A DNA stretch of 64,000 bases from an uncultured Coriobacteriaceae bacterium. Its GTDB lineage: Bacteria > Actinomycetota > Coriobacteriia > Coriobacteriales > Coriobacteriaceae. Below the pieces are notes generated by a model, which saw only the letters and a program-made list of their open reading frames with translations, was not told where the DNA came from and made no database searches. Position numbers and translations under genes: made by a program. The stretch lies in NCBI GenBank assembly GCA_949298635.1, contig CASFXG010000001.1, positions 1 through 64,000 on the forward strand, in the 5' to 3' direction. This document shows, one piece after another, positions 11,540-56,281 of this stretch (positions are counted from its first letter, which is position 1; each line of letters opens with the position of its first letter).

Positions 11540-11670
11540 GCGTCACTTTAGGGCCAACACTTTGGGGACGGGGTCAAAAGTGTTGAAATTAACACTTTGG
11601 GGACGGGGTCAAAAGTGTTGAAATTGGTACTTTTGACCCCGTCCCCAAAGTGTTGGCCCCAAAGTGACGC
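11540..11670. repeat. 131-bp REP-like palindrome with a 35-bp tandem duplication
   Basis: Arms 11540-11581 and 11629-11670 (42 bases each) are near-perfect inverted repeats carrying TTTGGGGACGGGG. Inside, the 35-bp unit 11556-11590 is repeated exactly at 11591-11625. The element begins 9 bases after the coaBC stop. It shares its core with the hairpins at 16456, 54250 and 43463. It could form a cruciform or RNA hairpin that also ends coaBC transcripts. Confidence 0.85.
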
Positions 11671-16455: not shown

Positions 16456-16587
16456 CACTTTGGGGACGGGTACGTTTGTGACGTTTTCGACACAAACGTA
16501 CCCGTCCCCAAAGTGTCAGGCACCGCCACGGTGACGAAGGTGTCCCAAACGTGTCGGATTCAACACTTTTGGCCCCGTCCCCAAAGT
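16456..16587. repeat. REP-like hairpin array between degV and trxB
   Basis: A perfect inverted repeat with 25-base arms (16456-16480 and 16491-16515; CACTTTGGGGACGGG core) and a 10-base loop is followed by a separate half-copy at 16561-16587 that matches the 11540-11670 unit (CCCCGTCCCCAAAGTG). It lies between two converging genes, so it could end transcripts from both sides. Confidence 0.85.
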
Positions 16588-29999: not shown

Positions 30000-31103
30000 C
30001 TATTCAGCCGTTCCCATGGAATCGACATCGTCATCAATGACTGCATCCCCGGTGGGTTCATCGGAGAAATCAAGCCCACAGGCGACGCGCACGCGGTTCT
30101 CGATCTCGTCGCTTAGGTCGGGATGCATCTTGAGGAAGTCCTTGGCGGCCTCGCGGCCTTGACCAAGGCGCTCGGAATCATAGGTGTACCAGGCGCCCGA
30201 TTTCTTCACCACACCGTAGTCGACGCCCATATCGAGGATGGAGCCCTCTTTCGAGATGCCGGTACCGTACATGATGTCGAACTCAGCCGTCTTGAAGGGG
30301 GCGGCCACCTTGTTCTTGACAACCTTGCAACGCACGCGATTACCGACGATGTCGTCTTTAACCTTGATGCTCTCGATGCGACGGATCTCGATGCGTACCG
30401 AGGAAAAGAACTTGAGTGCGCGACCGCCCGTGGTGGTCTCGGGGTTGCCGAACATGACGCCGATCTTCTCGCGTAGCTGGTTGATGAAGATACAGGTTGT
30501 ATTCGACTTCGAAAGGGAGCCAGCGAGCTTACGCAACGCTTGGCTCATAAGACGAGCCTGCAGGCCAACCGAGGAGTCGCCGATCTCGCCCTCGATCTCC
30601 GCGCGAGGAACGAGCGCGGCGACAGAGTCGATGACGACGGCATCGATGGCGCCGGAGCGGACGAGCATGTCGCAAATCTCGAGCGCCTGCTCACCGGTAT
30701 CGGGTTGCGAGATGAGCACCTCGTCGATATCGACGCCGATACGCGCCGCATATGCGGGATCGAGCGCGTGTTCGGCGTCAATGAACGCGACGATGCCGCC
30801 GGCAGCTTGCGCCTCGGCAAGGATCTCTAACGAGAGCGTCGTCTTACCTGAGGACTCGGGACCGTAGATCTCAATGATGCGCCCGCGCGGAACGCCGCCG
30901 ATACCGAGTGCGGCATCGAGCGAGAGCGCACCCGTTGGGATGGCCTCGATTTCCATCTCAGGGCCGCCGTCGCCGAAGCGCATGATGGAACCGCTGCCGA
31001 ACTTTTTCTCGATCTCGGCCTTAGTGGCTTCGATCATCTTATCCCGCTCCTCGCCGAAGGTGCGCTCGTGAATGGTCTTAACCGGGCCGGAACTCTTAGC
31101 CAT
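30000..31103 (-). CDS. recA: Recombinase RecA
   Basis: ATP-dependent strand-exchange protein and LexA coprotease (367 aa). Walker [10 protein letters not shown] at 81-89, the DNA-binding loop L2 region [15 protein letters not shown], and an acidic C-terminus. ATG follows AGAGGAGG. A LexA box lies in the promoter spacer. Confidence 0.98.
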
Positions 31104-31131
31104 GGAATCCTCCTCTTAGGTTGCCACATGC

Positions 31132-31160
31132 ATCATACGCGAACAGCTGTTCGCAGTCAA
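31132..31160 (-). promoter_or_regulatory. recA promoter with embedded LexA box
   Basis: On the minus strand TTGACT (31155-31160), a 17-base spacer and TATGAT (31132-31137). The spacer is almost entirely the palindrome GCGAACAGCTGTTCGC (31139-31154), an SOS box. LexA bound here would block polymerase directly. Confidence 0.92.
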
Positions 31161-31375
31161 GCTTGATACCGAAATGCTACCGCGCCAACCTTGCAGATTC
31201 CCAACAGCCCTCTCGCACGAACCTTGTCACAATCTAAAACGCACCTGTCAGTTTTCCAGGAAGCTGCGAAAAAATCCCATCAGGTGTGATTCAGCCCAGT
31301 AACCAGTAAGAACCACCACGCCCATTTCAACAAAGAAACACCATGCATTCTTATAGTGCTAGACCGCTCCTGTGT

Positions 31376-31438
31376 CGGCGTCTTGGTTTCAGCATCCGAT
31401 TCGCTTCGCTCACGAAGGATGCTGAGACCAAGACGCCG
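31376..31438. repeat. Long hairpin A upstream of recA
   Basis: 22-base arms (31376-31397 and 31417-31438) with one G-T wobble and a 19-base loop (31398-31416) that is the exact reverse complement of the loop of hairpin B. No T run follows on either strand. Confidence 0.9.
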
Positions 31439-31526
31439 CCACGGGAGCTCTGGAGACGAAAGTGCACGTGGCTCGATGCAACCAGTGTGTGCGATTATCG
31501 GTTGGTAAGATAAAGCCTCAGCAAAG

Positions 31527-31611
31527 TGCCCCGCCCTAAGGCGTTTCCTTTCGGAGCCCTTCGTGAGCGAAGCGAATCGGGCTCCGAAAGGAAACGCCTT
31601 AGGGCGGGGCA
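31527..31611. repeat. Long hairpin B between hairpin A and cinA
   Basis: 33-base perfect arms (31527-31559 and 31579-31611) with loop TTCGTGAGCGAAGCGAATC (31560-31578). Its stem is unrelated to hairpin A although the loop is the same in inverse orientation. The 31104-31623 gap also holds the recA promoter and 88 bases between the hairpins with no recognised feature. Confidence 0.92.
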
Positions 31612-31623
31612 ACGCGCAGGAAG

Positions 31624-32121
31624 CTATCCCTCTTCTACCGCACTCAGCAGCATCTGGAGCGCATGCAAACAAGCCGCCTGGCGCACGTCCTCGCGCGTCC
31701 CCTCGAACCTGCAACATTCCGTACGCACCACGCAATCACTCGCGAGACCGAAATAGACGGTGCCCACGGGGTCTTCCTCCGTGCCGCCTCCAGGCCCTGC
31801 GTAGCCCGTCGTGCTCACCGCGAGCGTGCTCCCGAATACCCTGCGTGCACCTTCAGCCATCTCGGAGGCACATGGGGCGGAAACGGCGGTGAAGCGCTCG
31901 AGCGTATGCAACGATACGCCAAGGACGGCATGCTTGATCTCATCGACATAGGTCACCGCTCCGCCGCGCAGCACATCCGAGGCTCCAGGGATGTCGGCGA
32001 TCGTCGATGAGACGAGTCCCGCCGTGCATGACTCGGCGGTGGAGAGCGTTACCCCGCGCTCATAGCAGAGGAGCACAAGCTCACGCGCCTTCTCTTCCGC
32101 AGCTTGAACAGCACAGGTCAT
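31624..32121 (-). CDS. cinA: CinA C-terminal domain protein (PncC-type nicotinamide-nucleotide amidase)
   Basis: 165 aa, only the CinA C-terminal amidase domain: TLSTAESCTAGLVSSTIADIPG and STTGYAGPGGGTEEDPVGTVYFG. Such proteins deamidate NMN to nicotinate mononucleotide for NAD recycling. The MoeA-like N-terminal domain of full CinA is absent, a common natural form. Last gene of the rnj-to-cinA run, next to recA as in many genomes. Confidence 0.9.
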   Translation of the reverse strand: MTCAVQAAEEKARELVLLCYERGVTLSTAESCTAGLVSSTIADIPGASDVLRGGAVTYVDEIKHAVLGVSLHTLERFTAVSAPCASEMAEGARRVFGSTLAVSTTGYAGPGGGTEEDPVGTVYFGLASDCVVRTECCRFEGTREDVRQAACLHALQMLLSAVEEG

Positions 32122-56156: not shown

Positions 56157-56281
56157 GCGCTCGGGGCGGGTTGCGGGCTTCCCTCACTGCTCGGACAGTC
56201 CTGCTCACGACGGAGGCGCCACTGGCGCCTCCTGTTCGCGCGGAACTCGCGTGAGGGAATCCCGCAACTCGCCCCGAGCGC
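56157..56281. repeat. 125-bp nested hairpin between lepA and rpsT
   Basis: Outer arms 56157-56187 and 56251-56281 pair over 31 bases with two mismatches (GCGCTCGGGGCG and CGCCCCGAGCGC at the base). The 63-base interior holds a second perfect hairpin GGAGGCGCC-ACT-GGCGCCTCC (56212-56232). No open reading frame or T run is linked to it. The 56111-56410 gap otherwise holds the rpsT terminator. Confidence 0.88.

Follow-up and report, generated by a model that had tools for sequence, protein, structure and literature searches.

Two long hairpins, A and B, lie in the gap between recA and cinA of an uncultured Coriobacteriaceae bacterium, within the 64,000-nt stretch of DNA that was analysed (the window). 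They are the simplest members of a dispersed Coriobacteriales class that is defined by its core. Each member of this class consists of a free stem around a fixed core, which is either of the GAGCGAAGCGA type or has the form AGTTCCGCAG[cap]CGAGGACTGTYTGAGCA, and stem lengths across the class range from 17 to 59 bp. The explanation that we favour, with a confidence that stops just short of even, is that A and B are an inverted pair of REP-like, core-recognised elements whose arms are matched by fold-back template switching.

Hairpin A (31366 to 31448, minus strand) is composed of arms at 31366-31397 and 31417-31448 and a loop at 31398-31416; its core, read on the minus strand, is TTCGTGAGCGAAGCGAATC. 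The stem is 32 bp long and 91% complementary, departing from perfect pairing at two T-G wobbles and one mismatch; the 22-bp stem originally described is its inner portion. Hairpin B (31527 to 31611, with its core on the plus strand) has arms at 31527-31559 and 31579-31611, which form a 33-bp, 100% complementary stem around the 19-nt loop at 31560-31578. Between the full hairpins stands a gene-free spacer of 78 nt (31449-31526), rather than the 88 bases first reported. The two loops, 19 nt each, are exact reverse complements, and similarity among the stems of A, B and a third copy, hairpin C (see below), does not rise above that of shuffled sequence. The original observation, that two hairpins carry one 19-nt loop, inverted, on unrelated stems, is confirmed. 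A perfect 22-bp hairpin is expected by chance 6e-7 times per window and a 33-bp hairpin 2.5e-13 times; A and B as products of chance are excluded. Folding z-scores for the two, on either strand, run from -9.7 to -13.4. Elsewhere in the window the 19-nt loop has no further match with up to three mismatches allowed (chance expectation 0.07).

The pair is bounded upstream by cinA (31624 to 32121, minus strand), which encodes a CinA C-terminal domain protein (PF02464) and reads towards hairpin B; its stop codon, at 31624, is 12 nt from the hairpin base. Downstream lies recA (30000 to 31103, minus strand; PF00154), which starts at 31103 and is preceded by a promoter-like site (31132-31160) that overlaps a LexA-type box, CGAACAGCTGTTCG, seen in the sequence. 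Like an intrinsic terminator, B is a strong hairpin soon after a stop codon. However, there is no T run on either strand, the stem is three times the usual length, and the core is conserved. Terminator-like sites with a T run are absent from 31080-31700, which agrees with the earlier view that A and B are not plain terminators; intrinsic termination is ruled out by the missing T run. A special tie of the hairpins to SOS and recA is unsupported, since the third copy sits between zinc-ribbon and cyclophilin genes and the recA-cinA gaps of four congeners lack such hairpins.

The third copy is the one further exact 19-mer in the host genome (G000, a 1.93-Mb draft in 83 contigs, 86% complete, of which 441 kb was surveyed for all hairpins), and it is present on another contig. 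It tops hairpin C, a perfect 37-bp hairpin with a third unrelated stem, which has the zinc-ribbon gene on one side and the cyclophilin gene on the other (gene neighbours of the elements are called from open reading frames only). When one mismatch is allowed, none of 66 other genomes of the family contains the 19-mer, and the other searched genomes of the taxonomic class yield a single match, with no hairpin and in seemingly coding sequence. In Collinsella massiliensis (G003), the site of C upstream of the cyclophilin gene holds a perfect 32-bp hairpin. The flanks of the two sites align up to the hairpin base and the loops are homologous; the stems are unalignable. Within the core of A, B, C and the C. 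massiliensis copy, 20 of 23 positions are invariant, CCKTCGYGAGCGAAGCGARTCGG, and the four stems resemble one another no more than shuffled sequences do. Five genomes of the genus contain no second copy of the A, B or C stems. The predicted constancy of the loop over free stems therefore extends to the other copy in the genome and to the orthologue in a related species, and it holds both within and between species. A local inversion-duplication accident is ruled out by the third copy and the C. massiliensis orthologue. About 80 nt from the orthologous hairpin lies a DUF3800-XI RNA (L033:2312-2359; Rfam RF02975, 64 bits against a cut-off of 37.8), which is a separate RNA.

The wider class emerges from several searches. 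At the same cyclophilin site, a further genome (G004) carries a different hairpin, in which a 20-bp outer stem surrounds GCGCAGTTCCGCAG, a variable capped stem and CGAGGACTGTCTGAGCA. The second core type is present in several copies in G004, the host genome, C. massiliensis and one more genome (G002), each copy with its own long outer stem; its cap sometimes equals the GAGCGAAGCGA motif of the family-1 loop. Across 84,980 species genomes it occurs in at least 113 stretches, mostly in Coriobacteriia. Among the matches listed there are also exact cores in metagenome-assembled genomes (MAGs) labelled Hydrogenedentota, Bdellovibrionales, Chloroflexi, Omnitrophota, Myxococcota and others, although these cross-phylum occurrences rest on MAG labels and may include binning errors. 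One such MAG (HKST-UBA12, labelled Bdellovibrionales) has two elements, L116 and L178, with stems of 78-80 bp, the outer half of which (AGGTGCCTGACACTT...) is common to both while the inner half differs in both arms. The window itself contains a further class member, which the first reading did not mention, at 56157 to 56281 (minus strand), with a 31-bp outer stem (94%) and a degenerate second-type core (GCGAGTTCCGCG...CAGGACTGTCCGAGCA). A covariance model built from A, B, C and the C. massiliensis copy gives 88-95 bits for only these four source hairpins and 31-56 bits for hairpins in 30 further genomes of the order; at most of the 28 loci examined, a long hairpin carries a different GAGCGAAGCGA-like or AGTTCTTCGCGCAGCGAAGCTG-like core. 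No family of Rfam 15 exceeds its gathering score, A, B and the second-type elements giving only sub-threshold matches to microRNA hairpins, and the class was not found in literature searched by motif and by description. Viral contigs contain neither the exact 19-mer nor the second-type core, and phage records give no match; on these exact patterns a phage-borne element is rejected. A plasmid search returned two weak partial matches only.

In their placement these elements recall the REP, BIME and REPIN sequences, which are short intergenic palindromes that recur many times per genome, frequently as neighbouring pairs of inverse orientation, and mostly downstream of genes (PMC3733652, PMC3116915, PMC8266576). 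Like them, members of the class are intergenic, near-perfect hairpins, and close neighbours among them are arranged as '-+', as A and B are, in 17 of 18 pairs (12 of 13 in one set, 5 of 5 in another). That A and B face opposite ways is what is usual for pairs of the class and no special event. What appeared to be a conserved upstream module 60-120 nt before the stem is actually the partner hairpin of a '-+' pair. A preference for gene ends is also seen. Of 70 cases, 38 have the stop codon of an opposite-strand gene no more than 30 nt from the hairpin base at the core's 3' side, compared with 11 at its 5' side, and many members are 6-25 nt from a stop codon. In most cases the core is antisense to the closest gene end. 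The stop-codon rule is followed by hairpin B, whose base is 12 nt from the end of cinA, but by neither A nor C.

REPs, however, are grouped by a conserved palindrome together with an unpaired GTAG or CGTC tag, whereas in the present class it is the core that is constant; the stem varies freely and is longer, and tags are lacking. Each of the two tags is found in only 1-2 of 92 flanks per side, the same as in control windows. With tags at the control level and stems that are not conserved, identity with GTAG/CGTC REPs is rejected; the class is REP-like in placement and is not REP by definition. The window also contains separate palindromic repeats with conserved stems (CACTTTGGGGACGGGT..., GTAAAATTACCCCAGGGG..., ATGTCCCAAAAAGGGACAG...), at 11540-11670 and 16456-16515, with others at L017, L020 and L027 of the same genome. 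These look like ordinary REP-type repeats.

Comparisons between orthologues reveal how the stems change. At one site in Adlercreutzia muris and A. caecimuris the flanks are 96-98% identical and the core is kept; the outer stem and the cap stem differ. The genomes G056 and G058 (91% identical) differ in a block of the outer stem, on the two arms alike, and C. massiliensis and the host (L056, L061) differ by a 4-nt block that one carries in both arms and the other in neither. In 17 orthologue comparisons there are 56 paired changes, 19 one-sided changes, one unpaired double change and 30 paired gap columns; the paired counts are inflated because the stems were chosen for being paired, a choice of which the block changes are independent. 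Other orthologues have unchanged stems. An ancestral empty site was not found; the g4 genomes checked all carry the element, and the recA-cinA gaps of relatives, which are hairpin-free, are too diverged for an ancestral arm to be identified. Copying of stems from another location in the genome is rejected, since no second copy exists. To the right of the core at L222 (G058) lies a tandem duplication, of about 55-60 nt, of the 3' half of the hairpin, which is missing in G056 and has the appearance of replication slippage at the hairpin.

Template switching at fold-back hairpins creates, extends and maintains perfect stems and can make several compensatory changes at once (PMC8794818). The hairpins described in that work resemble the present class in their perfect stems, multiple simultaneous paired changes, paired insertions and rarely changed loop. 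However, they belong to single RNA genes, whereas here one core with many stems forms a dispersed family that recurs across species. In the process that we envisage, the core, when single-stranded during replication, would fold onto itself into a small hairpin, across which the polymerase would change templates and so copy one arm onto the other. A change in a single arm would then be either erased or fixed in both arms, and the stem would stay near-perfect while its sequence drifts or is replaced. The heptamer d(GCGAAGC), a known DNA mini-hairpin, occurs in all family-1 loops and in many of the caps found across the wider class. However, the DNA fold of the 23-nt core in G000 is instead a predicted CTTCG-TGAG-CGAAG hairpin, and a role for the heptamer is only a possibility.

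Two options had originally been offered for a constant loop on free stems, a loop-recognising protein or a process by which any sequence adjoining the loop is copied in inverted form. The second is the best fit to the arm data, that is, to the paired block changes, the paired 4-nt insertion and the mismatch ratio of the window's family (19:18, below). A loop-recognising protein is possible as well, and the core has to be maintained and dispersed by something. Template switching alone does not explain the arrival of the core at new sites or its conservation. The core may be kept and spread through recognition by some factor, for which a binding or mobilising protein would be the obvious candidate, and a hairpin at the 3' end of a gene may serve as a transcript-end or read-through barrier. 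Several observations count against arm copying, namely the lack of an empty site at which the copying of one flank onto the other could be observed directly, a G-U to A-C ratio of 34:6 in Eggerthellaceae, the unchanged stems of some orthologues, and the departure of A and C from the stop-codon rule. A broader version, which is possible but less likely than not, is that the class represents undescribed cross-phylum DNA elements. Their heritable identity would be the 20-60-nt core only, and fold-back copying would build, and go on renewing, a near-perfect stem from local sequence wherever the core lands, which would give each copy a stem of its own.

Mismatches within the stems bear on whether the arms are matched as DNA or as RNA. 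When RNA pairing is under selection, G-U pairs are expected to exceed A-C on the transcribed strand. For all elements pooled, the ratio of G-U to A-C is 54:13. In Coriobacteriaceae/Atopobiaceae, however, G-T and A-C stand at 19:18, with 33 other mismatches, in 1232 pairs. Because the excess disappears from Coriobacteriaceae once the families are split, it was dropped as RNA evidence for the window's hairpins. The 19:18 ratio suggests that in the window's family it is not RNA pairing that keeps the two arms complementary; equal numbers of G-T and A-C are what matching at the DNA level would be expected to give, and the mismatches look like raw DNA mutations. The G-U excess is found in Eggerthellaceae (34:6) and in a few other phyla (10:1), and an RNA role elsewhere in the class is possible. 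In Eggerthellaceae elements such as L082, L090, L139 and L179, the outer stem has a conserved inner part (GTGCCTCCA/G) and G-U pairs recur at the same positions, a sequence pattern that suggests an RNA-level role in that family.

An alternative that we consider unlikely is that the hairpins are RNA elements at gene 3' ends, where they would provide end protection or U-run-free termination, while a protein reads the core and the stems drift by compensatory substitution. Sites 6-25 nt after stop codons (12 nt after cinA for B), very stable folds, the G-U excess of Eggerthellaceae and the other phyla, and paired substitutions between orthologues are all consistent with such a function. However, the window's family lacks a strand bias of G-U over A-C, the T run is absent, and no Rfam family passes its cut-off. 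In addition, insertion of a multi-base block into both arms is hard to achieve via single substitutions, neither A nor C comes after a stop codon, and the core is mostly antisense to the closest gene end.

Another alternative, slightly less likely still, invokes non-autonomous mobile hairpins. Here a core-binding, single-strand transposase of the REP/RAYT or IS200/IS605 type would swap whole hairpins at preferred sites, with the stem lying outside its recognition site. Dispersed copies, '-+' dimers and intergenic sites would be accounted for, as in REPINs (PMC3733652, PMC8266576), and so would the difference in the entire hairpin between A. muris and A. caecimuris within near-identical flanks. 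However, moved copies should have stems in common, and the stems of A, B and C are single-copy in the genome; the stem base is also without GTAG or CGTC tags, and the viral contigs and phage records are without a match. An assembly or library artefact, from fold-back chimeras or a hairpin adapter, can be dismissed: an adapter would leave a fixed loop with inverted flanks, and G000 is an incomplete draft, but the symmetry ends after 32-37 bp with ordinary flanking genes carrying on, an independently sequenced species has a hairpin at the position of C, between flanks that align, and the class recurs across many unrelated assemblies.

Because palindromic repeats are as a rule identified by their stems, a class whose identity lies in the core slips past ordinary repeat finders. 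The class raises the questions of what recognises the core and why it often adjoins stop codons. Its many copies with altered stems at orthologous sites constitute a natural test of the origin and persistence of long, near-perfect hairpins, whether through base-by-base compensation under selection or through one-step copying of an arm.
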